From Fodinibius sp. Rm-B-1B1-1 (GTDB lineage: Bacteria > Bacteroidota > Rhodothermia > Balneolales > Balneolaceae), in the NCBI RefSeq assembly GCF_038594945.1, contig NZ_JBCFYD010000001.1:1-64000 (forward strand): DNA of 64,000 bases, in the 5' to 3' direction. The position numbers and the translations under genes were made by a program. Shown in pieces: positions 46,381 to 59,565 of the stretch. The notes beneath the pieces are model-generated. The model searched no databases. It was not told the origin of the DNA and saw only the letters and a program-made list of their open reading frames with translations. Numbering within the stretch: the stretch's first letter is position 1; the number at the start of each line of letters is the position of its first letter.

Positions 46381-47034
46381 ATGGCTCAGATTTTTCCTAA
46401 ATGGGCAAATGAAGTTCCCCAACGTATTTTGCTCGGGCTTATTATTTTCGCGACCGCAACAGTAGCAGGAGTTTGGTACTATTTTTCTCCGGAATACACC
46501 GATGTAGGCTATGCTCCTGAACAGCCCATCGAATACAGCCATAAATTGCACGCCGGTGAACTTGACATAGATTGCCAGTATTGTCATACCAATGTAAAGG
46601 AATCAAAACATGCCAATGTTCCGGCCACACAAACTTGCATGAACTGTCACAATCAAGTTGATGGCTCGCAAAACCCAGAGGAGGTACAAAAAATCCGCGA
46701 CAGTTGGGAAAATGACGAATCCATTGAATGGGTGCGCGTGCACAACCTCCCGGACTATGCTTACTTCAATCATGCTGCACACGTAAATGTTGGCGTTGGA
46801 TGTGAAACCTGCCATGGGCGTGTTGACCGAATGGAGACCGTCTTCCAAAAAGAACCACTAAGTATGAGTTGGTGTCTTGACTGTCACAGAAATCCGGAAC
46901 AGTACGTTCGTCCGGTTGATGAAGTTACTACAATGGGCTATAAGCCAGAAAAAGATCAAATTGAAATGGGTCGTGACTTGGTAGCAAAACACAATATTGC
47001 TCCACCAACCTACTGTCAAAGCTGCCACTATTAA
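46381..47034 (+). CDS. actA: Alternative Complex III subunit A, pentaheme cytochrome c
   Basis: The 217-residue product has one N-terminal membrane segment (about 16-34) and five CxxCH motifs: CQYCH, CMNCH, CETCH, CLDCH and CQSCH. ActA in Rhodothermus is a pentaheme c-type cytochrome of the same design. It transfers electrons out of the ACIII complex, a quinol to cytochrome c oxidoreductase. It begins the operon actABCDEF. Confidence 0.92.
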   Translation: MAQIFPKWANEVPQRILLGLIIFATATVAGVWYYFSPEYTDVGYAPEQPIEYSHKLHAGELDIDCQYCHTNVKESKHANVPATQTCMNCHNQVDGSQNPEEVQKIRDSWENDESIEWVRVHNLPDYAYFNHAAHVNVGVGCETCHGRVDRMETVFQKEPLSMSWCLDCHRNPEQYVRPVDEVTTMGYKPEKDQIEMGRDLVAKHNIAPPTYCQSCHY

Positions 47035-47085
47035 TAATAAGGTATACCTAACCGAACGAATCTGAATAAACGCAATCGTAACGGA

Positions 47086-50000
47086 ATGAGCGAAGAAGTA
47101 AAAAGTCCCAATTACTGGAAAAGCTTGGGCGAACTTGCCAGAAACGAAGAATATGAAAAGTTCGTCGAACGTGAATTTCCTGAAAATGCTACAGAACTTA
47201 ATGATAAAGTATCCCGTCGCGGCTTTCTGCGGGTAATGGGAGCTTCCATTGCATTAGCTGGCTTTGCTGCATGCCGACGCCCAGTGCAGAAAATCGTACC
47301 TTTCAGCAAGCAGCCGGAAGATTATGTGGAGGGAGAGCCAAAGTTTTACGCTTCTTCAGCCCCCTTTCAAGGTGCTCTTAGCGGCATTGTTGTTGAAAAT
47401 AACGAGGGGCGTCCGACTAAGATTGAAGGAAATGAGATGCATCCCGCCAGCCAGGGAAATACCAGCATTTTCAGCCAGGCTGAGATATTAAACATGTATG
47501 ACCCCGATCGCTCGCGTTACGTTCGAAAAAACGGAGAGCGTTCGTCGGTTAGTGCCTTTGCAGAATTTTGTAGTGAACATTTTTCTAATACCAATCAAAA
47601 CATTGCCTTTGTTTCGGAAGCAAATTCTTCACCTACTTATAATAGGTTGAAAGATGAGGCAATGGATCGCTTTTCGAATGCGCAATGGATCACCTACGAA
47701 CCATTTGGTGAAGACAATGCCCTTGAAGGAACAAATATGGCATTTGGTCAGCGATTGCGCACATATAATCAATTTGGTGAAGCCGATGTCATCGTAAGTT
47801 TTGATGATGACTTTTTAAATCCGGCTGCCGATAAAAATAGTGTTGAAAACACTAAGAGTTTTACTGACCGGCGCCGCGTGATGTCGGAAGATGATGACAT
47901 GTCACGATTTTATGCTGTTGAAAGTACATTCAGCATTACCGGCTCCAACGCCGATAACCGTCTGCGTATTAAGTCTGGCGAAGTTGACCTCTTTATATAT
48001 GCACTGGCTGCTGAGCTTTCTGGTTCAGTGAGTGGACTTTCTGCATTTAACGGTTATAGCAACAAATTTTCTGATCACGATTGGATATCGGTACTGGCTG
48101 AAGAGCTGCTCGATAATCAAGGTCGTTCACTATTAACCGTTGGACGAGATCACAAGCCGGAACTTCACGCTACTGTTGCAACAATCAATGTAGCACTCAA
48201 CAACGACGGTGAAACCGTTGGTTATATTGAAATTCCACATATTGATGACCAAAACAATCGGGAAGCATTCTCTGGCTTAATTGATGAACTTAACAATGAA
48301 AATGTTGATACTGTTGTATTAGTCGGAACGAATCCCGCTTTTTCAGCACCTGCTGATCTGAATTTTGAAGATGCACTCTCTAATGCCGGGCAAGTTGTTC
48401 ATCTTTCTGACTATTATGATGAAACGTCGAAACTGGCTAACTGGCACATAAATCGTGCGCATTTCCTTGAAGCATGGAGCGACGGATATTCTTATTCCGG
48501 AACACGATCGATCGTTCAGCCACAAATCGAACCTTTATATTCTGGCATTAGTGAAATTGAGTTCTTGAACACCATATTAACGGGAGAACAATCCAACGGG
48601 TATGACTTGGTTCAAGAAACATGGAAAAATTATTACGGCAATGACTTTACCAGTCAGTGGAATGAAGCCTTGCATGATGGTTTAGCAGAAGAACAAACTT
48701 TTTCTGCAGCATCAGTAAGTATTTCAAACGACTTTAACTCCCAAGCCTCTAACTTTATCAGCGATGCACAACCTGCTGAGGGCATGGAGCTGGTTATTCG
48801 TCCCGACTCTACGGTTTTTGATGGACGCTATGCCAATAACGGCTGGCTGCAAGAGCTTCCCAAGCCAATGACCAAAATCACTTGGGATAATGTGGCCTTA
48901 ATGAGCAAGAAAACAGCTGACGAATTGGGTGTTAAAGAAGCCGGGCTCGGTAAATCAGAAGTAGAAGTTATTGCTATTACAGTAGATGGTACTACGGTTG
49001 AAATTCCTGCTTGGGTTCAACCAGGCCATGCCGATGACAGTATCACTATTACTGTTGGTTATGGCCGCGAAGGTGTTGGACGCGTGGCAAACAAGACGGG
49101 AACCAATACGTATCCGCTTCGAACAACCGCTAATATGCATGTTGCGGGAAATATTTCCGTAGAAAAGACTGGGGAAACCTATGAAATAGCATCTACACAG
49201 GATCACAACAGCATGGAAGGACGTTCGCTGTTGCGATATGCTACACTCCAGGAATATAAAGAGAATCCAAACTTCTCGGCGTATGAATCGGCGTATGATG
49301 CCGAAATGCCAGGTGTCGCATTTGCCGAAGAACATGGCGAAGACGACCCACTATCAATTTTTAATTCTATCGACGAGCAAGAATATCCCGATGACGAACC
49401 TCAATGGGGTATGTCTATCGACTTAAATACCTGCACGGGATGTGGAGTATGTACGATCGCATGTACCGCAGAAAATAACATCCCTGTTGTAGGCAAACGC
49501 GAAGTAAGTCGCGGGCGTGAGATGCACTGGATTCGAAATGACCGCTATTTTGATGGCGATGTCAATGATCCAAAAGCTGTTCACCAACCTGTTCCTTGTA
49601 TGCACTGTGAACTGGCTCCTTGTGAACAAGTTTGTCCGGTTGCCGCAACTACTCACAGTGATGACGGCATGAACCAAATGACGTATAACCGATGTATTGG
49701 AACGCGTTACTGCGCTAATAACTGTCCATATAAAGTTCGTCGATTTAATTTCTTTAATTACTCAAAAGAATTTTTAACGGGTGGTGACGATCCTGAAATC
49801 GTCCAGATGGCAATGAATCCAGAAGTAACGATTCGTTTCCGCGGTGTGATGGAAAAATGTACCTACTGCGTACAGCGAGTTAATCGCGCGAAGATACAAC
49901 GCGATATCGAAACGGATGGTGAGTCTAAGAAACCACTGGATGGTTCTGTTGAAACGGCATGTCAGCAAGCGTGCCCAGCAGACGCAATCTATTTCGGTGA

Positions 50001-50136
50001 TCTTACCGACCCAGAGAGTGAAGTAGTCAAAACGAAGAAAAATAACCGTAACTACTTGCTCTTAGAAGAACTTAATACGCGACCAAGAACGTCGTATCTT
50101 GCTAAAATTCGTAATCCAAATCCCAAATTGGCCTAA
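47086..50136 (+). CDS. actB: Alternative Complex III subunit B, molybdopterin-like/iron-sulfur protein
   Basis: The 1016-residue protein fuses a molybdopterin oxidoreductase-like part (about 1-760) with a four-cluster ferredoxin domain. A twin-arginine signal (SRRGFLRVMGASIALAG) at 43-59 targets it across the membrane. The cluster cysteines are in CTGCGVCTIAC, CMHCELAPCEQVC, CIGTRYCANNC and CTYC...CQQAC. ACIII members have lost the Mo cofactor. Its residues agree with the actB line, starting 51 bases after actA. Confidence 0.92.
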   Translation: MSEEVKSPNYWKSLGELARNEEYEKFVEREFPENATELNDKVSRRGFLRVMGASIALAGFAACRRPVQKIVPFSKQPEDYVEGEPKFYASSAPFQGALSGIVVENNEGRPTKIEGNEMHPASQGNTSIFSQAEILNMYDPDRSRYVRKNGERSSVSAFAEFCSEHFSNTNQNIAFVSEANSSPTYNRLKDEAMDRFSNAQWITYEPFGEDNALEGTNMAFGQRLRTYNQFGEADVIVSFDDDFLNPAADKNSVENTKSFTDRRRVMSEDDDMSRFYAVESTFSITGSNADNRLRIKSGEVDLFIYALAAELSGSVSGLSAFNGYSNKFSDHDWISVLAEELLDNQGRSLLTVGRDHKPELHATVATINVALNNDGETVGYIEIPHIDDQNNREAFSGLIDELNNENVDTVVLVGTNPAFSAPADLNFEDALSNAGQVVHLSDYYDETSKLANWHINRAHFLEAWSDGYSYSGTRSIVQPQIEPLYSGISEIEFLNTILTGEQSNGYDLVQETWKNYYGNDFTSQWNEALHDGLAEEQTFSAASVSISNDFNSQASNFISDAQPAEGMELVIRPDSTVFDGRYANNGWLQELPKPMTKITWDNVALMSKKTADELGVKEAGLGKSEVEVIAITVDGTTVEIPAWVQPGHADDSITITVGYGREGVGRVANKTGTNTYPLRTTANMHVAGNISVEKTGETYEIASTQDHNSMEGRSLLRYATLQEYKENPNFSAYESAYDAEMPGVAFAEEHGEDDPLSIFNSIDEQEYPDDEPQWGMSIDLNTCTGCGVCTIACTAENNIPVVGKREVSRGREMHWIRNDRYFDGDVNDPKAVHQPVPCMHCELAPCEQVCPVAATTHSDDGMNQMTYNRCIGTRYCANNCPYKVRRFNFFNYSKEFLTGGDDPEIVQMAMNPEVTIRFRGVMEKCTYCVQRVNRAKIQRDIETDGESKKPLDGSVETACQQACPADAIYFGDLTDPESEVVKTKKNNRNYLLLEELNTRPRTSYLAKIRNPNPKLA

Positions 50137-50154
50137 TTTTCAATACACTTTACG

Positions 50155-51588
50155 ATGAGCACTGATTATCAATACGTACCAGAGCCAAAACTTGTAAAAG
50201 GAGATCATTCCTTTGGGAGTATCACTGATCTTATTGCGAAAACTCCCCTATCTCCTACTCCGAAATTATGGTATTTAGCATTTGGCCTTGCCAACATGTT
50301 GCTTATGGTCCTTTTGGGTGCCATTGGATACCTTATTTGGGAAGGTACCGGAATTTGGGGTCTTAACAATCCCGCTGGATGGGGTTGGGCTATTATCAAC
50401 TTTGTGTGGTGGGTTGGTATTGGTCACGCCGGAACCTTGATTTCTGCTATTTTATTCCTCTTTAGACAGGGATGGCGTACAGCTATTAACCGTTTTGCGG
50501 AGGCGATGACCATATTTGCGGTTATGTGTGCCGGAATTTTTCCCGCCATTCACGTGGGACGTATCTGGGTTATTTACTGGGTATTTCCGATTCCCAACCA
50601 AATGGCAGCTTGGCCCAACTTTTCAAGTCCACTACTTTGGGATGTATTTGCCGTAAGCACATATTTTACTGTTTCATTACTTTTCTGGTATGTAGGTTTA
50701 ATTCCTGATTTTGCCACACTGAGAGACAAAGCCAAAAGTAAGGTTGCTAAAATGTCATACGGGATTGCCTCGCTGGGCTGGACAGGCAGTTTTCGAAATT
50801 GGTGGAATTACGAAAAGGCTTATATGATTCTGGCCGGACTTGCTACGCCCCTCGTACTTTCAGTACACACTATTGTATCATTTGACTTTGCTGTTTCGGT
50901 TATTCCGGGCTGGCACAGTACAATATTTCCACCCTACTTTGTTGCCGGTGCGATTTATTCTGGTTTTGCCATGGTATTAACACTGATGTTGATTGCACGA
51001 AAGATCTACAAGCTTGAAGACATCATGAACATCGATATCATGGAAAAGATGAACCTTGTAATGATGGTTACGGGTAATTTGGTGGCATTCGCTTACTTAA
51101 TGGAAGGATTTGTAGCCTGGTACAGTGGATATATTTATGAACAAGGAATTTTCTGGTTATACGTCGTTGGACCTTATGCCTGGGGCTTCTGGATTCTCAT
51201 GTTCTGTAACGTGGTAACTCCCCAGCTTCTGTGGTTTAAGAACATTCGACGTAATGTAGCAATCACATTTGTGATATCGATTATCGTAAACATCGGTATG
51301 TGGTTCGAGCGATTTATGATTTCGGTCGCATCGCTATCAACTGATTTTATGCCTTCTGCTTGGGATTATTACTCTCCCAGCATGTGGGATATTCTCACGT
51401 ACATTGGAACATTCGGATTATTTTTCACTTTCTTCCTGCTATTCCTCCGCTTCCTGCCAATGGTTGCCATTGCAGAAGTTAAAGGAGTTATGCCGCAGGC
51501 CGATCCACATAACTACGATGAGGAAACCAGCGAATTTGATATTGAGAAAACGAAACCTGTTGTAGTTCAACAAGAGCAAACTGTTTAG
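50155..51588 (+). CDS. actC: Alternative Complex III subunit C, NrfD/PsrC-like membrane protein
   Basis: The 477-residue product has about ten membrane segments, the NrfD/PsrC fold of ACIII quinol-binding subunits. The phrase [19 protein letters not shown] and histidines in the second and fourth helices agree with ActC. It lies 18 bases after actB. Confidence 0.92.
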
Positions 51589-51600
51589 TAACTGATATTT

Positions 51601-52149
51601 ATGGACGCAGAAAACAAAAAAGTGTACGGTGTATTAGCTGAGTTCAAAAATCCCAAAGAACTTGTTGATGCAGCATCATCCGTAAAGAAATCCGGTTATA
51701 AGGATTTTGATACCTACGCTCCCTTCCCTATTCACGGGATGGAAAAAGCAATGGGCATAAAGAAGTCTCCCCTTGGTTGGATTGTACTGGGAGGAGCTCT
51801 TACAGGAATGATCGGCGCATTAGCATTAATGATTTGGGTGATGGGCTATGAATACCCGATGAACATCAGTGGTAAACCTTTTATCAATATTCCCATTTAC
51901 GTGCCCATTACTTTTGAGCTGACGGTTTTATTATCCGCTTTTGCTGCCACCTTTGGCATGTTGGCGTTAAACAAACTTCCGCGGTTACACAATCCACTAT
52001 TTAACGTAGATCGCTTTGAAAAAGCTTCTGACGATGGCTTTTTTGTCCACATAGAAGCTTCCGACGATCTTTTTTCAGAAGAAAAGGTTACTAAGCTGTT
52101 CCAAAATAATGGGGCAACGCACATTGAAACCGTATACGATTCGGAATAA
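51601..52149 (+). CDS. actD: Alternative Complex III subunit D (DUF3341)
   Basis: The 182-residue product begins with a soluble alpha/beta part (KVYGVLAEFKNPKELVDAA) and has two membrane segments (about 60-82 and 101-124). DUF3341 is the ActD family. It binds on the cytoplasmic side of the complex. Twelve bases separate it from actC. Confidence 0.9.
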   Translation: MDAENKKVYGVLAEFKNPKELVDAASSVKKSGYKDFDTYAPFPIHGMEKAMGIKKSPLGWIVLGGALTGMIGALALMIWVMGYEYPMNISGKPFINIPIYVPITFELTVLLSAFAATFGMLALNKLPRLHNPLFNVDRFEKASDDGFFVHIEASDDLFSEEKVTKLFQNNGATHIETVYDSE

Positions 52150-52185
52150 TTGACCACAAAAATCTTTAGTTCGCATAACAATCCG

Positions 52186-53172
52186 ATGAAAGTTTCTAAG
52201 TACTTATTATTAGCTGTTATTGTTCTCCCATTGGCATTGGCCGGTTGCAGGGGCGAAAAGTTTGATTCGCAACCCGTACACCCTAACATGAACATGGACC
52301 AGCAAGAGCGTTTTGAACCACAAGAAAAAAATGAGTTTTTCGCTGATAATCGTGCCATGCGAAAGCCGGTTGACGGCACTATCGCCCGAGGTGACTTAAA
52401 AGAAGACAAGGCTTACTACCAGGGAATTAATGAAGACAGCAGCTTTGTAGAGGAAATTCCCGTTGATCTTACGAAGTCATTCATCTATCGCGGAAAAGAT
52501 CAATATGAGATCTATTGTACACCTTGCCACGGAAATACTGGTGATGGCAATGGAATTGTGATGGCCAACAATTACGGCTATGTCCCAGCACCAAGCTTCC
52601 ATATAGAACGTCTACAAAATCAAAGCGATGGCTATATTTATTCTGCTATCGCCAATGGTATCCGTAATATGCCCTCTTACGCAACACAAATTTCTGTCAA
52701 AGATCGATGGGCTATTGTGGCATACGTACGAGCTTTGCAAAAAAGTCAAAATGTATCTGAAGATGAAATTCAACAGTACGATGTTGACCTCACTGCTCTG
52801 CAAGAAGATTATCAAGAAAAGTTAGCTGCCGAGCAGGCTAAGAAAGAGGCTGAAGCTGATGACGATGGAGAAGTTACCGCATCACGTGGACAAACAGTGG
52901 CTCAGAACAACGGTTGTATGACGTGCCATTCAACAGATGGATCAAAACTGGTAGGTCCAACCTGGCAAAACCTGTATGGATCTGAGCGAACATTGGATGA
53001 CGGTTCAACTGTTACAGCTGATGAGGACTATCTGCGAGAATCTATTGTAGATCCATCAGCAAAAGTTGTCGAAGGATTTCCACCATCGATGGTACCTTAT
53101 GATTATTTAAGTGACAGCGAGATAAACTCTTTGGTTGCTTACATAAAATCACTGAGTGAAAACGCAGAATAA
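52186..53172 (+). CDS. actE: Alternative Complex III subunit E, diheme cytochrome c lipoprotein
   Basis: The start used is the ATG at 52186; an in-frame TTG at 52150 is weaker. The lipobox places the lipidated cysteine at 21 (ALAGC). There are two heme motifs, C111-C114-H115 (CTPCH) and C244-C247-H248 (CMTCH). Usual ActE has one heme. The second domain (about 240-328) is closely similar to the heme domain fused to CoxB, for example sharing [15 protein letters not shown] and the same spacing. A coiled, acidic linker (about 205-230) joins the two. Confidence 0.9.
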   Translation: MKVSKYLLLAVIVLPLALAGCRGEKFDSQPVHPNMNMDQQERFEPQEKNEFFADNRAMRKPVDGTIARGDLKEDKAYYQGINEDSSFVEEIPVDLTKSFIYRGKDQYEIYCTPCHGNTGDGNGIVMANNYGYVPAPSFHIERLQNQSDGYIYSAIANGIRNMPSYATQISVKDRWAIVAYVRALQKSQNVSEDEIQQYDVDLTALQEDYQEKLAAEQAKKEAEADDDGEVTASRGQTVAQNNGCMTCHSTDGSKLVGPTWQNLYGSERTLDDGSTVTADEDYLRESIVDPSAKVVEGFPPSMVPYDYLSDSEINSLVAYIKSLSENAE

Positions 53173-53215
53173 CATTCTAAACGATTTTAACGCATATAAA
53201 CGATTGGTTTAATCT

Positions 53216-54400
53216 ATGAGTAAGCCCACAATTACTGATACACTGGATTTTCCCTCAGACTTAAATGTGACCAAGTCGCTCTTTGGGGTTGGCGTTGTAG
53301 GCCTGTTGGCCACTGGTGTTGGATACTTTCTTGATCATGATCAGTTCTACTTCTCATACCTTGTAAGCTTCTCTTTTTTCTCGAGCATTGCCCTTGCAAG
53401 TTTATTTTTTGTAATGATACAGCACCTAACTCGTTCGGAGTGGAGTGCTGTAATTCGTCGAATACCTGAAGCAATTTCTTCGAACTTCTGGATCTGGGGA
53501 TTGTTCATTATCCCTATTCTTTTCGGGATGCATTCACTGTACCATTGGACCCATGCCGATGCAATAGCGACCGATCCGGTACTACAAGGCAAGGAACCGT
53601 ACTTGAACACTACTTTCTTTATTATTCGCCAAGTAATCTACTTTGCTGTTTGGAGTTTTCTGGGTTATCGATTGTATAACAAATCTGTTGAAATGGATGA
53701 AACTGGCGATTGGGGGCTCCAAACTCTATTGCGACGAACCAGTGGTCCGGGCTTGTTTTTCTTTGCTATTACCCTGGCATTTGCATCATTTGATTGGATC
53801 ATGTCCCTTGATCCACATTGGTACTCTACTATTTTTGGTGTCTATTATTTTGCAATGAGTTTTCAGGGTTTATTTGCTGCGCTCATTCTCATCATATTTT
53901 TCTTGTGGAAGAATGATCTGCTCACCAATACCATTCAAAAGGGACATATTTATGATTTAGGGGTACAGATGTTTGGCTTCACCGTATTCTACGCCTACAT
54001 CGCCTTTAGTCAATTTCTTTTGATCTATTACGCCAATATCCCTGAGGAAACAGTCTGGTACTTAGAGCGTTTACAAGGCGGATATGAATACTTAGCATAT
54101 ATCTATTTATTTGGACGATTTGTCATTCCATTTATACTTTTACTGCCTAAAGCACCAAAGTCGAATTACAAAATTGTAGGTAGTGTTTCAGTACTGATAT
54201 TAGTTTCACACTTAGTTGAACTTTACTGGCTTGTAATGCCAGTACTTAACCATCATGGCTTCCATTTTAACTGGATGACAATTACCAGTTTTGTAGGACT
54301 TGGAGGTATTTTCTTAGGATTGTTTTTCTACCGATTTAAACAACAGAAAATGGTAGCTATCAATGATCCCAAACTGGGAGAATCACTCAACAAACACTAA
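53216..54400 (+). CDS. actF: Alternative Complex III subunit F
   Basis: This 394-residue protein has about ten membrane segments and belongs to the ActF line (NrfD-related quinol-binding subunit 2). Residues FASFDWIMSLDPHWYSTIFGVY are highly typical. It follows actE by 43 bases. Confidence 0.9.
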   Translation: MSKPTITDTLDFPSDLNVTKSLFGVGVVGLLATGVGYFLDHDQFYFSYLVSFSFFSSIALASLFFVMIQHLTRSEWSAVIRRIPEAISSNFWIWGLFIIPILFGMHSLYHWTHADAIATDPVLQGKEPYLNTTFFIIRQVIYFAVWSFLGYRLYNKSVEMDETGDWGLQTLLRRTSGPGLFFFAITLAFASFDWIMSLDPHWYSTIFGVYYFAMSFQGLFAALILIIFFLWKNDLLTNTIQKGHIYDLGVQMFGFTVFYAYIAFSQFLLIYYANIPEETVWYLERLQGGYEYLAYIYLFGRFVIPFILLLPKAPKSNYKIVGSVSVLILVSHLVELYWLVMPVLNHHGFHFNWMTITSFVGLGGIFLGLFFYRFKQQKMVAINDPKLGESLNKH

Positions 54401-54459
54401 CATTTAGCTAACACTATAACGCAGTAACAACTGATACTGCTAATAAAGCTTATACTTTC

Positions 54460-55014
54460 ATGGCCAACGAGAAGCAAAATTATTCCGCTGAATTTAAGAA
54501 AGAGGTTGCTCAAAAAGCTTTAGACCAATCCAAGAAAAATCTGGATAAATTGGCGGAACAGTACGACGTATCTGTTTCTGTTATTTTGATGTGGGCAACA
54601 GAGCTTGAAAAAGGTGGAGAAGATGTATTTAAAACGGAGGATGAAGAACAACAATCCCCTTCGGAAGAACCCACAGAAAATGTTGATATTGAAATAACCA
54701 GTGAAGAAATCGCTGACTCTGTTGAACATGGCGTTATGGCTGATAAGCTCAACTATAAACGCCTTATATTTTGGAGCGTTTTTGGTACCATTTTGGTTAT
54801 TATTTTTGTGCGTGGACTTATGGAGATGTACGAGTATAATATGAACACCACACAAGAACGCGTATCATCTGAAAGTGAGTACTATCAAGTTAATCAGATG
54901 AAAAAAGAAGCCAGGCAACAATTAGAAAGTTTCGGTGTCGTTGATCTCGAAAATAACATTTATAGAATTCCTATCGACAGTGCAATCAATACGATGACTG
55001 CCGATGAAGAATAG
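54460..55014 (+). CDS. Membrane protein with N-terminal transposase-type HTH in the respiratory operon
   Basis: The 184-residue product starts with NYSAEFKKEVAQKALDQSKKNLDKLAEQYDVSVSVILMWATELEKG, which is like the DNA-binding helix-turn-helix of IS3-type transposase OrfA (HTH_Tnp_1). An acidic linker follows (60-95), then one membrane helix (about 102-122) and a C-terminal stretch ending LENNIYRIPIDSAINTM, which resembles the RIPID-type tail of small proteins near cytochrome oxidases. It has no transposase catalytic domain. It is co-directional between actF and sco. Confidence 0.65.
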   Translation: MANEKQNYSAEFKKEVAQKALDQSKKNLDKLAEQYDVSVSVILMWATELEKGGEDVFKTEDEEQQSPSEEPTENVDIEITSEEIADSVEHGVMADKLNYKRLIFWSVFGTILVIIFVRGLMEMYEYNMNTTQERVSSESEYYQVNQMKKEARQQLESFGVVDLENNIYRIPIDSAINTMTADEE

Positions 55015-55023
55015 GTAATAATT

Positions 55024-55863
55024 ATGAAGTACTTTGGGCTTGTAATAGTAGCATTAAGCCTGTTTTTACTCCCTAAGATTTCCTTTGGACAGTTAAACCA
55101 ACAAAAACCACGTCAGTTGGATGATGTTGGAGTCGAAGAACGTCTGGGAGATCAAATACCACTTAATTTAACTTTTGCTAATGCAAAAGGAGATTCGATT
55201 AAGCTCAAAGAATTATTTACTGATGGAAAACCGGTCTTGTTAAATCCGGTATACTACGAATGCCCCCAATTATGTTCAATGATCAAAGAAGCAATTTTTA
55301 AGGGGGTGAAAGATCTTAAATGGTCACCTGGCAAAGAATACAATATTGTTACATTCAGTTTTGATCCCAATGAAAAAACATCATTGGCAGCTGATAATAA
55401 AAAACGGTTTTTGAATAAACTTGATCGCAATAGTGCCGAGGAAGGATGGCACTTTTTAACAGGCAGTAAAGATAACATCCAACAACTTACTGAGGCTATT
55501 GGCTTTAAAAAGCAGCGTCTTGAAAACGGGCAATATGCACATGGCGCTGCCATTATGTTTTTAAGCCCGGATGGGAAAATAACCCGTTATTTATATGGCC
55601 TCAAATATGATGAATTTGATTTACGGAATGCGCTCTATGACGCCGCCGATGGAAACGTTGGCAGTACAGCAGAACAAGTATTACTCTACTGCTATCAGTA
55701 CGATGCGGATTCCAATAGTTATGTACCGGTAGCCTGGCGTTTTATGCAGGTTGGCGGCTTTGCTACCATGTTAATTCTGGGTATATTCCTCGGTTTTATG
55801 TGGTTGAAGCACCGATATTCTAATAATGAAAAGCAAATAAAAGAAACGAATGGACGCGCTTAA
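55024..55863 (+). CDS. sco: SCO1/SenC-family copper chaperone
   Basis: The 279-residue product has a signal peptide, a thioredoxin-like domain with CPQLC (C80, C84) and histidine H173 (QYAHGAAIMF), and a C-terminal membrane helix (about 240-262). Sco proteins load copper into the CuA site of cytochrome oxidase subunit II. It overlaps coxB by 14 bases, agreeing with coupled expression. Confidence 0.9.
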   Translation: MKYFGLVIVALSLFLLPKISFGQLNQQKPRQLDDVGVEERLGDQIPLNLTFANAKGDSIKLKELFTDGKPVLLNPVYYECPQLCSMIKEAIFKGVKDLKWSPGKEYNIVTFSFDPNEKTSLAADNKKRFLNKLDRNSAEEGWHFLTGSKDNIQQLTEAIGFKKQRLENGQYAHGAAIMFLSPDGKITRYLYGLKYDEFDLRNALYDAADGNVGSTAEQVLLYCYQYDADSNSYVPVAWRFMQVGGFATMLILGIFLGFMWLKHRYSNNEKQIKETNGRA

Positions 55864-56800
55864 AGATTTTTTATTACCACCGGCAAAATCAACGCTGGCT
55901 GAGCAGACCGATACACTCTTTTGGTTTGTACATGGCAGCAGCCTTATTTTAACGATTGGACTTATTGGTGTGCTGATTTATTTCGTGTATAAGTACCGTC
56001 GTAAATCAGAAGACGAAGTTACACCACTTATTACGCATAATAGTGCCCTCGAAGTTACTTGGTCTGTGATCCCATTAATCTTGGTTCTTATTGTGTTTGG
56101 ATGGGGATATCAAGTATTCGTTAACCAAACGGTGGTACCTGATGATGCCTACGAAGTAAATGTAACAGCTCAAAAATGGATTTGGCAGTTCCAATACGAA
56201 AACGGAGCACGATCTACCGGTGAATTACATGTGCCCGCAGATCGCCCAATCAAACTGATTATGCAATCCAATGATGTAATTCACTCCTTTTTTGTGCCTG
56301 ACTATCGTCTAAAACAGGATGTTGTGCCCGGCCAATATACCGAAATGTGGTTTAACGCTCCCGAACCCGGCGAATCAATCATTTTTTGTACCGAGTATTG
56401 TGGTGATGGGCACTCTGATATGCTTGGGAATGTTATTGTCCATGAAGAAGAAGAATTTGAAAGCTGGCTTGCCGAAAATTCTGGTGGCGGTTCTAAGCCT
56501 GATGATTTAGCTCCAGAAAAATGGGGAGAACAATTAACGCAAGAATATGCGTGTCAAACTTGCCACTCTACCGATGGAAGTGATATGACGGGACCAACTT
56601 GGCAAGGATTGTTTGGCCATGAAGTGCCACTGGAAGATGGCTCTACCGTTACTGCTGATGAAAATTACATCCGGGAATCAATATTAGAACCAAATGCTAA
56701 AGTTGTGGAAGGATACCCGGCGGTAATGAATACTTACCAAGGTCAGCTCAATGATGAACAGATTAATGCGATTATTGAATACATCAAAACATTGAAGTAA
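55850..56800 (+). CDS. coxB: Cytochrome c oxidase subunit II with fused cytochrome c domain (caa3 type)
   Basis: The 316-residue protein has two membrane segments near the N-terminus (about 24-47 and 70-92). The CuA ligands are H145, C180, C184, H188 and M191 ([12 protein letters not shown]). The C-terminal heme motif C235-C238-H239 (CQTCH) is followed by the cytochrome domain to the end. This is the caa3 design. The heme domain is closely related to the second domain of ActE. Confidence 0.94.
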
Positions 56801-56801
56801 T

Positions 56802-58547
56802 ATGGATACAGCAGAAGCAAGTTCTACAGAAAAAAAGATTCAGGTACAACGATTTAAACCCGAGGATAATCCTGACAAACATTTCCTAAATGAAGAAACC
56901 GGTTTGTGGTCTTGGTTAACGACCGTCGATCATAAAAAGATCGGTATTATGTTTTTGGGAGCTATTACCTTTTTCTTCTTTATTGGAGGAATAATGGCTC
57001 TGATTGTACGTACCGAGCTGTGGACTCCCGCTAAAACATTTATTGAGGCCAATACCTACAACCAGGTTTTTACCCTGCATGGGGCTATTATGGTTTTTCT
57101 ATTCTTAGTTCCAGCAGTACCTGCAGCACTTGGTAACTTTATCTTACCGTTACAGCTGGGTGCCAAAGATGTAGCCTTTCCCAGGCTTAACTTAATGAGC
57201 TTCTATCTTTACCTGGGAGGAGCTTTTGTTGCTGTATTTGCCATATTAAATGGTGGTATTGATACAGGATGGACATTCTACACGCCCTACTCTTCTACTA
57301 CCGGTGGTGCTGTTACAACCATGGTTTTTGGTGTATTTATTATCGGGTTCTCCTCTATTCTTACGGGAATCAACTTTATCACAACCATTCACAAACTGCG
57401 CGCGCCCGGCCTAACCTGGGATAAGCTATCGCTTTTCAGCTGGAGTCTGTATGCAACAAGTATTATTCAAATTTTAGCAACACCAGTTCTTGCTATTACT
57501 CTTGCCCTTATTGGCATGGAACGTATTTTGGGCATCGGTATTTTTGATCCTGCAATGGGCGGTGATCCGGTTCTTTTCCAACACTTCTTTTGGTTCTACA
57601 GTCACCCGGCAGTATATATTATGATTGTTCCCGGTTTTGGAGTGGTTTCTGAAGTTATTACCACTTTTACACGTAAGCACATCTTTGGATATTGGGCTAT
57701 TGCACTTTCATCCTTAGCAATTGCCTTTATTAGTTTCCTCGTATGGGGACATCACATGTTTGTATCCGGACAGGCTTCTATTGCATCAATGATTTTCTCA
57801 TTCCTCACTTTCTTGGTTGGTATTCCAACAGGCATCAAAATGTTCAACTGGACTGCAACCTTATATAAAGGGTCAATAGATTTAAAATCACCGCTCTTAT
57901 ATATATTTGGATTTTTCTTCCTCTTCTTAGTTGGCGGACTAACCGGTATTGTACTTGCATCAATCGCCCTCGATGTTCACCTGCATGATACCTACTATGT
58001 AGTTGCCCACTTTCACTTTGTAATGGTAGGTGGTATGGTGATGGCTTTCTTAGCCGGCCTGCATTACTGGTGGCCTAAGATTACTGGAAAAATGTATAAC
58101 GAGACATTAGCCAAAATAAGTTGTGGAGTAATCTTTATTGGATTTAACGTCACCTTTTTACCTCAGTTTGTAATGGGTTCGCAGGGAATGCCTCGACGTT
58201 ATTTTAACTACATCGAACAGTTTCAACCATTCCACCAAGTATCAACGATCGGTTCATATATATTAGGACTTGGCTTCCTGCTGGTATTCTATTATTTGGT
58301 GAAATCATTATTTACCGGCCAGAAAGCTACGGCTAATCCCTGGGGTAGTCGCGCTATGGAATGGCAAATAAACACACTTCCACCACTGCACAATTTCCAT
58401 CATACACCTGTTGTTATTAACGGTCCCTATGACTATCACAAGCCAATGGAAGAATTTCAGTTGGGACTTGCACACTCTGCAAATGGGCACGGCAAGCAAA
58501 GTGATGTTGAAGTAAGTGCAGATGGTAAAGAAATTAAAGCCGAATAA
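56802..58547 (+). CDS. coxA: Cytochrome c oxidase subunit I (A2-type heme-copper oxidase)
   Basis: The 581-residue product has twelve membrane segments. The motif Y266-S267-H268-P269-A270-V271-Y272 contains the crosslinked His-Tyr pair. It lacks the glutamate of the A1 type, which places it in the A2 (YSHPAV) class as in Rhodothermus caa3. The copper and heme ligand motifs [10 protein letters not shown] and HFHFVMVGG are present. It follows coxB by a single base. Confidence 0.95.
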
Positions 58548-58582
58548 CTGAGTATTAACCTGAAAATTATTAATAACTGATT

Positions 58583-59239
58583 ATGGCAGATCATTCATCA
58601 TCCACAACACATTCGCAGTTTTTTCAGCATCATTTTGTGGATGCCGATCAGCAGTTCGAAGCTGCTAAAATGGGAATGTGGATCTTCTTGGCAACTGAAA
58701 TCCTGATGTTTGGCGGGCTGTTTGCAGCATATATTGTATTCCGCCTGTGGTATCCCGACTTGTTTACTCAAGCCTCGGCTCAACTCGATACCTTTTGGGG
58801 AGCAGTAAACACTGTAGTTCTTATTGGCAGTAGTTTAACGGTAGCAATGGCTATTAAATCTGCCCAATTAAATCAGAAAAAAAATATTGCCATAAATCTG
58901 GGTATTACACTGGCCTTAGCTGCTGTCTTTATGGTTATTAAATACTTTGAATGGACCCATAAATTTCACCTCGGTATCTATCCCGGTGAATTTTATGCTT
59001 TTGAAGGAATAGCCCATGAGAAAGCAAATGTGTTTTATAGTCTCTATTACCTGATGACTGGTTTGCACGGTCTTCACGTATTAATTGGTATGGGATTAAT
59101 GAGTTGGTTGCTATGGAGATCCTTAAAAGGACATTTCGATAGTGAATACTACACCCCTATTGAAATGACCGGCCTCTATTGGCACTTGGTTGATATCATC
59201 TGGATTTTCCTATTCCCTCTCTTCTACTTAATTGAATGA
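58583..59239 (+). CDS. coxC: Cytochrome c oxidase subunit III
   Basis: This 218-residue membrane protein with about five hydrophobic segments begins with a soluble N-terminus (FFQHHFVDADQQFEAAKMGMW) and has the subunit III phrases EILMFGGLFAAYIVFRLWYP and GLHGLHVLIGMG. It lies 35 bases after coxA. Confidence 0.93.
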   Translation: MADHSSSTTHSQFFQHHFVDADQQFEAAKMGMWIFLATEILMFGGLFAAYIVFRLWYPDLFTQASAQLDTFWGAVNTVVLIGSSLTVAMAIKSAQLNQKKNIAINLGITLALAAVFMVIKYFEWTHKFHLGIYPGEFYAFEGIAHEKANVFYSLYYLMTGLHGLHVLIGMGLMSWLLWRSLKGHFDSEYYTPIEMTGLYWHLVDIIWIFLFPLFYLIE

Positions 59240-59262
59240 TAACTTAAAATATTTTACTCCTC

Positions 59263-59565
59263 ATGAGCGGACATCATATATCCACCGACAAAACATTACT
59301 CGGCGTTGCTGCCGCACTGCTGGTACTGACGATTCTCACTGTTGGCATATACTATATTCATATCCCTACACCCTGGGATATTGTTACAGCCATGGGTATT
59401 GCCGTTGTTAAAGCAGGACTTGTAGCGTTATTCTTTATGAACCTTTACTGGGATGAACGCTTTAACTCTATGATATTTATTTCAGGACTGGCATTTTTAG
59501 GGCTCCTCATAGCTCTTACCCTGATGGATACCCTATTCCGTGTGGAAACAATCCCGGGTTTCTAA
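59263..59565 (+). CDS. coxD: Cytochrome c oxidase subunit IV
   Basis: The 100-residue product has three membrane segments, typical of the prokaryotic subunit IV (COX4_pro). It is the last gene of the coxBACD set and ends before a strong terminator. Confidence 0.88.
   Translation: MSGHHISTDKTLLGVAAALLVLTILTVGIYYIHIPTPWDIVTAMGIAVVKAGLVALFFMNLYWDERFNSMIFISGLAFLGLLIALTLMDTLFRVETIPGF

Follow-up and report, generated by a model that had tools for sequence, protein, structure and literature searches.

A second, caa3-type heme domain on the ActE subunit of alternative complex III in Balneolaceae

The first 64,000 nucleotides of contig NZ_JBCFYD010000001.1 (assembly GCF_038594945.1, forward strand) of Fodinibius sp. 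Rm-B-1B1-1, a member of the Balneolaceae (order Balneolales, class Rhodothermia), constitute the stretch of DNA analysed here and are referred to as the window. It contains an operon for alternative complex III (ACIII) that extends from actA to actF (46381-54400) and is followed on the same strand by genes for a small protein, a presumed SCO-like protein and the oxidase subunits CoxB and CoxA. The ActE protein of this operon carries two heme c domains, the second of which, as supported by sequence comparison and structure modelling, belongs to the family of cytochrome c domains found in CoxB of caa3 oxidases. The features of the two proteins concerned are:

52186..53172, + strand: actE, probable lipoprotein subunit of ACIII with two heme c domains
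52450..52770, + strand: ActE domain 1 (canonical ActE heme), CTPCH at 52516-52530
52771..52866, + strand: charged linker of ActE, predicted to form a helix (residues 179-202 in the model, about nucleotides 52789-52860)
52867..53157, + strand: ActE domain 2 (caa3-type cytochrome c domain), CMTCH at 52915-52929, presumed Met ligand codon at 53089-53091
55850..56800, + strand: coxB, caa3 oxidase subunit II (CuA) with a C-terminal heme domain; TIGR02866 (CoxB) at 208 bits (cut-off 147.7), COX2 and cytochrome c Pfam matches
56504..56797, + strand: CoxB C-terminal cytochrome c domain, CQTCH at 56552-56566; 1w2l_A match at 94 bits, residues 225-314

The start of actE is most plausibly the ATG at 52186, with a TTG at 52150 as the alternative, and the lipobox, judged by eye, reads LALAGC. 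The gene lies between actD and actF (both named by position), and its product is orthologous to structurally characterized ActE proteins: the best PDB match of domain 1 is 6f0k_E, the ActE of Rhodothermus marinus (245 bits, residues 24-207), 6lod_E, 8k9e_E and 6btm_E are matched as well, and ActE is top-ranked in Foldseek. Given that the 340-aa frame contains two CxxCH domains (CTPCH at residue 123 and CMTCH at residue 256) instead of one, the protein represents a variant rather than a standard ActE.

The initial annotation, made from the sequence alone, held that the second domain is almost the same as the heme domain of CoxB. The kinship is borne out, with a BLOSUM62 score of 285 and 52 of 89 residues identical, compared to a top score of 52 among 1000 shuffles, whereas domain 1 scores 30 against domain 2 and 39 against the CoxB domain. 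The common heme spacing and shared phrases that it pointed out are there too: CxxCH and Met are 58 residues apart in both domains (256 to 314 in ActE, 235 to 293 in CoxB, where CQTCH lies at residue 235), and DGSTVTADE and AKVVEG occur in both. However, 'almost the same' overstates an identity of 58% at the protein level and 162/267 at the DNA level. The same codon is used at only 18 of the 50 identical residues other than Met and Trp, so that, together with the DNA divergence, nothing points to recent copying or to gene conversion. The whole ActE (in two matched stretches) and CoxB pass the cut-off of Pfam Cytochrom_C, although domain 2 on its own reaches 23.8 bits against PF13442, below the cut-off of 27. 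The best PDB match of domain 2 is 1w2l_A (91 bits, residues 246-334), and its model superimposes on 1w2l with TMt 0.90 and a root-mean-square deviation of 1.4, so that, with its CxxCH and conserved Met, it conforms to the 1W2L type in both sequence and fold. A Pfam search of ActE gave no COX2 (CuA) match; thus, domain 2 is not attached to a CuA subunit. In an AlphaFold model of ActE alone, built from 42 sequences (mean predicted local distance difference test score, pLDDT, 76.3), domain 2 is confidently modelled and the linker contains a 24-residue helix (block pLDDT 71-78).

The neighbouring genes are:

46381..47034, + strand: actA, five CxxCH, without a sixth-heme domain
47086-50136, + strand: actB, from open reading frame and order; QrcC/QrcB- and DsrP-like matches below cut-off
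50155-51588, + strand: actC, from open reading frame and order; QrcC/QrcB- and DsrP-like matches below cut-off
51601-52149, + strand: actD, from open reading frame and order
53216..54400, + strand: actF, from open reading frame and position
55024..59565, + strand: SCO1/SenC-like gene, coxB, coxA and two more oxidase subunit genes, 3' of the ACIII genes; coxA matches TIGR02891 above cut-off

The names actB, actC, actD and actF are those we take to apply from operon position, and those of the SCO-like gene and of oxidase subunits III and IV are likewise our assumption. Among the best 25 of 34 family matches of actB, the twin-arginine translocation leader model TIGR04519 is the sole one above its cut-off; the NCBIfam search returned no match for actD or actF. 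Between actF and the SCO-like gene (54460-55014) lies a gene for a 184-aa protein that resembles at its N-terminus the IS66 accessory protein TnpA (NF047595, E 9e-5, below cut-off) and has an apparent membrane segment thereafter, an odd constituent of a respiratory operon.

ActE domain 1 was matched in 209 of the 217 genomes of the class, and 100 loci, chosen for family spread and not drawn at random, were read alongside the window; the genomes counted are related to one another and include many metagenome bins. All 41 loci read from the Balneolaceae and the single locus read from another family of the order (f4) encode a two-heme ActE, whereas ActE is one-heme in the other 59 loci of the class. 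Judged by length only, the 78 ActE-bearing Balneolaceae genomes all have ActE frames of 328-399 aa; elsewhere, motif counts are used, since the lengths of long ActE frames (up to 1033 aa) are those of open frames. The two hemes are separated by 132-137 residues in all 42 diheme ActE of the order, despite a variable linker sequence, and the CxxCH and the presumed distal Met of domain 2 are kept in 42/42. In each of the 39 Balneolaceae loci with a complete CoxB (41 read), the diheme ActE is accompanied by a CoxB with one heme, and ActA has five CxxCH in all 40 where it was found (41 read). Two Balneolaceae genomes (G074 and G079) have neither an ActE nor a COX2 match, and no diheme ActE without a caa3 partner was seen in the family.

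A scan of named genomes yielded at least 579 loci, among the best 80 of which 21 have a diheme and 59 a one-heme ActE. The diheme loci are L139-L157, which overlap the genomes of the class set, include that of f4 (L157) and have a one-heme CoxB in 19/19, and two loci outside the order (L180 and L188). In other classes of the phylum, ActE is one-heme in all 20 loci read among the matches listed. Thus, the annotated statement that ActE usually has one heme, consistent with its tabulation elsewhere (PMC8076601), holds for the other loci read but not for the two families of Balneolales or for the second lineage described below. Inspection by eye of the same 20 loci revealed ActD-ActE fusions in 10 (L351-L356, L364-L367; frames of 383-475 aa, one heme), a type of fusion known from Melioribacter (PMC3534657); these loci also encode a one-heme protein with a hydrophobic N-terminus, approximately where the gene following actF would begin.

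In a tree built without distant outgroups, the 41 second domains of the Balneolaceae all lie on one side of a branch that separates them from the CoxB domains and the f4 domain (Shimodaira-Hasegawa-like approximate likelihood ratio test, SH-aLRT, 100). In none of 39 genomes is the genome's own CoxB the best Balneolaceae CoxB match of ActE domain 2, and the closest non-ActE match of the 41 domains is a CoxB of the family in 28 cases, another CoxB of the class in 10, one of another phylum in two and one of the order in one. Most simply, domain 2 joined ActE before the radiation of the Balneolaceae and the two domains have evolved separately since. It is a trait of the family and not a duplication peculiar to the operon of the window; of the within-operon duplication originally proposed, the CoxB-type kinship stands, whereas its restriction to this operon does not.

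The source of the domain is harder to trace, given that the domain trees rest on about 98 columns. When distant outgroups are included, the 41 domains form several branches around the outgroup root. Without outgroups, forcing them together with the CoxB domains of the family increases the likelihood by 27.2 (p value of the approximately unbiased test, p-AU, 0.78), and adding the f4 domain to them increases it by 22.7 (p-AU 0.78); such gains under constraint indicate that the quick search had missed better trees. A tree including other phyla (150 rows, 22 of the 41 Balneolaceae ActE domains) gives -11.3 (p-AU 0.36) for uniting the second domains of both lineages and +21.2 (p-AU 0.81) for uniting the Balneolaceae domains with CoxB of the family. 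In a four-tree test under LG+G4 with 88 of the 150 rows (the others thinned by halves, with ActE of G097, G114, G209 and one long row dropped), none of the topologies was rejected: free (p-AU 0.66), derivation from Balneolaceae CoxB (0.43), a single origin with the second lineage (0.43) and ancient separate groups (0.33). Accordingly, separate ancient groups, the outcome that would have counted against the initial annotation in the tree of the two heme domains that it called for, are not rejected either. The sequences are compatible with derivation of domain 2 from the CoxB of the Balneolaceae themselves. As for f4, its domain groups with two CoxB rows of the second phylum in the 150-row tree (support 80), a tree of ActC, ActF and CoxA (36 rows) leaves f4, the Balneolaceae and families f2, f3 and f5 as a three-way fork, and the grouping of the Balneolaceae with f4 on ActE domain 1 (107 rows) is not rejected (p-AU 0.48). 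A tree of ActE (130 rows, with 22 of the 41 Balneolaceae and without G309) calls for three changes of state, two of them forced by starred branches.

The second lineage, to which L180 and L188 belong, is part of a deltaproteobacterial phylum, probably Myxococcota. A search with the ActE of L180 matched 42 of 195 genomes of this phylum, and in 23 of these a single frame holds both heme domains (G309, which looks frame-broken, was left out). These ActE form a clade of their own (98*) and have a heme spacing of 106-121 residues in 23/23. A COX2 (PF00116) search matched 22 of the 23 genomes (none in G380), and in all 22 CoxB lacks CxxCH, with a CuA motif of CTEICGIGH, CAEICGIGH, CVEICGIGH or CAEICGVGH; in 11 (G236, G237, G306, G307, G308, G343, G346, G347, G349, G387 and G388), actE and the heme-less coxB share a strand and are no more than about 14 kb apart. 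By contrast, the one-heme ActE relatives that were read and have an A-type CoxB (n=11; G248 gave no A-type CoxB and G293 was outside the COX2 search) carry a heme on CoxB in 10 cases (G224, G230, G233, G235, G250, G251, G253, G399, G411 and G413). The initial annotation regarded a diheme ActE without caa3 as a case that would count against its view; none was seen in the Balneolaceae, and the one that the second lineage does offer, a diheme ActE with a heme-less CoxB, fits a role of domain 2 as a tethered electron carrier rather than opposing it, and indeed supports it.

The heme-less CoxB proteins (21 of the 22, plus those of G309 and G409; that of G344, known from a 122-residue frame, was left out) form a separate clade (99*) on a long branch. 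Hence, loss of the domain from the same CoxB gene is unsupported, and the sequences look more like a change of oxidase. At the base of this clade sits G409 (L291, L373), which is either a natural carrier-free pair of ACIII and oxidase or an incomplete genome. In G235 (L258), the 539-aa CoxB frame has two heme domains in tandem and ActE has a single heme, a mirror image of the Balneolaceae arrangement.

With moderate confidence, we favour the explanation that ActE domain 2 is an added caa3-type domain that serves as a tethered carrier of electrons from ACIII to the oxidase without a soluble cytochrome c. Electrons would pass from menaquinol through the ActB cluster, the five ActA hemes, ActE heme 1 and ActE heme 2 to the oxidase, entering it via the CoxB heme or directly at CuA, with domain 2 held on an arm of nearly fixed length that is probably helical. 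We infer the path, the docking and the movement of the arm from features that are observed, namely the two domains and the family of the second, its heme ligands, the family-wide presence, the conserved spacing and the complementary pattern of the second lineage. A direct path between ACIII and caa3, as in a supercomplex, was part of the original proposal. A place between the two complexes is still the best reading of domain 2, but both the supercomplex and direct transfer are already published for R. marinus, whose one-heme ActE passes electrons straight to caa3 and, in a map at 20 Å, is located close to subunit IIc (PMC5928083), so that a direct path does not depend on a second domain.

The heme tally points to the junction with the oxidase. 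The R. marinus chain is described as having five and one c hemes in ACIII and one on caa3 (PMC5928083), and that of Flavobacterium johnsoniae six and one in ACIII and none on aa3 (PMC8552683, PMC5928083), that is, seven each. The second lineage likewise has five, two and none, making seven (ActA counted in L180 and L188 only), and by our tally the Balneolaceae have five, two and one, eight in series. This suggests that, placed on ActE, a caa3-type domain is able to stand in for the one on CoxB, which makes the oxidase junction the likely workplace of domain 2. If it is indeed a carrier, the Balneolaceae domain would then add a step to the chain or provide a second entry to the oxidase. More broadly, although on this we are close to evenly divided, the caa3-type domain could be a portable carrier that sits on CoxB in R. 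marinus, in the form of a published counterpart on ActA in F. johnsoniae, on ActE alone in the second lineage and on both ActE and CoxB in Balneolales. ActE would then have gained it on at least two independent occasions, and the arm that holds it in Balneolales varies little in length.

Several observations weigh against a carrier role. CoxB of the Balneolaceae keeps its own heme, so that the added one is not required, and the two heme domains of the family each bear a strong negative charge (mean net charge -11.4 and -10.2), so that no complementarity between them is obvious. The predicted template modelling score of the ActE model (0.46) makes its domain arrangement untrustworthy. In F. johnsoniae, deletion of ActE is reported to have left aa3 activity unimpaired (PMC8552683); ActE, then, need not be on the path everywhere. 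The heme-less CoxB and the diheme ActE of the second lineage each form one clade, so that their association amounts to about one evolutionary event; G307 and G347 have an additional heme-bearing CoxB, as does G384, where it is cut by a contig end, and G409 combines a one-heme ActE with a heme-less CoxB. Finally, these extra heme-bearing CoxB genes and the published ActE-like protein with four hemes from MBNT15 bacterium SHF-111 (PMC9386147) lower our confidence slightly.

Among the alternatives, a recent duplication within the operon, or gene conversion between actE and coxB, might be read from the shared phrases and the level of identity, but the mostly different synonymous codons and the DNA divergence, the one-sided position of the second domains in the tree and the ranks of the genomes' own CoxB rule it out for all practical purposes. 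Drift, by which a CoxB-type domain once joined ActE and has persisted as a redundant buffer of electrons without any particular function at the oxidase, could draw on the heme retained by CoxB and on the dispensability of ActE for aa3 activity in F. johnsoniae (PMC8552683). However, the conservation of ligands and spacing throughout the order, and the recurrence of such a domain elsewhere, in a lineage whose diheme ActE is paired with a heme-less CoxB, make it quite improbable.

It is also unlikely, if somewhat easier to entertain, that ActE is a branch point at which domain 1 serves caa3 and domain 2 another acceptor, such as a ba3-like oxidase, cbb3 or a periplasmic enzyme. The genome of the window has three COX1 matches above cut-off, a second CuA subunit of 172 aa without CxxCH and a cbb3-like cluster (G000:C1:373311-374995 and 582300-587600; L220, L221, L002), the ba3-like and cbb3-like types being our assumed designations; judged by eye, CcoP-like heme domains are encoded in two frames of the cbb3-like region. 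In F. johnsoniae, moreover, ActE has been proposed as an electron branch point (PMC8552683). Yet 29 of the 65 Balneolaceae genomes with a COX2 match have a single one, of caa3 size (weak matches may be missed), and all 29 are among those whose ActE frames are long enough for two hemes; a diheme ActE together with one COX2 match was read, for example, in Gracilimonas (L147) and in Balneola (L150). Feeding ba3 is therefore not the general reason for domain 2, whereas cbb3 and other acceptors are possible ones.

A two-heme ActE was not found in the abstracts and passages of open-access ACIII literature that were covered, although subscription reviews may mention more. We consider it a new ActE variant; ActE-like proteins with several hemes already have a precedent (PMC9386147). 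The handover from ACIII to the oxidase is unsettled, R. marinus placing ActE on the path (PMC5928083) and F. johnsoniae showing it to be dispensable for aa3 activity (PMC8552683). The Balneolaceae, with a domain on both ActE and CoxB, and the second lineage, with one on ActE only, offer natural test cases in which the arm and the domain are separable from ActE.

Of the known systems, the ACIII and caa3 of R. marinus (6F0K; 1W2L) are similar in that ActE domain 1 is orthologous and CoxB has a heme domain, but the R. marinus ActE has one heme and neither arm nor second domain; ActE of G148 (f15) reads like 6f0k_E, also with one heme. In F. johnsoniae ACIII-aa3 (6BTM), an extra tethered, mobile heme domain is likewise found on ACIII and is proposed to reach aa3, between the heme wire and the oxidase (PMC8552683). 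There, however, it is on ActA, as a sixth heme that is said to replace the cytochrome c domain of the oxidase (PMC5928083), unlike the window, where ActA has five hemes and the domains are on both ActE and CoxB. Actinobacterial QcrC of bcc-aa3 is also a two-heme subunit on the complex III side that links to a CuA oxidase without soluble cytochrome c (PMC8361435), but it is part of bc1 and actE sits in an ACIII operon. ActE domain 1 scores 42.8 bits against the QcrC model NF050122 (cut-off 200) and the Foldseek match of ActE to 7q21_C (QcrC) is weak (E 1.3e-3), and we take the resemblance to reflect no more than a common membership of class I cytochrome c. The SHF-111 protein shares the possession of more than one heme but has four, and its ACIII-like cluster is far from oxidase genes and discussed in terms of iron reduction (PMC9386147). 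The second lineage (L180/G217, L188/G218 and kin) resembles the Balneolaceae in joining ActE to a caa3-type domain and differs in the heme spacing, the heme-less CoxB and the separate ActE clade.

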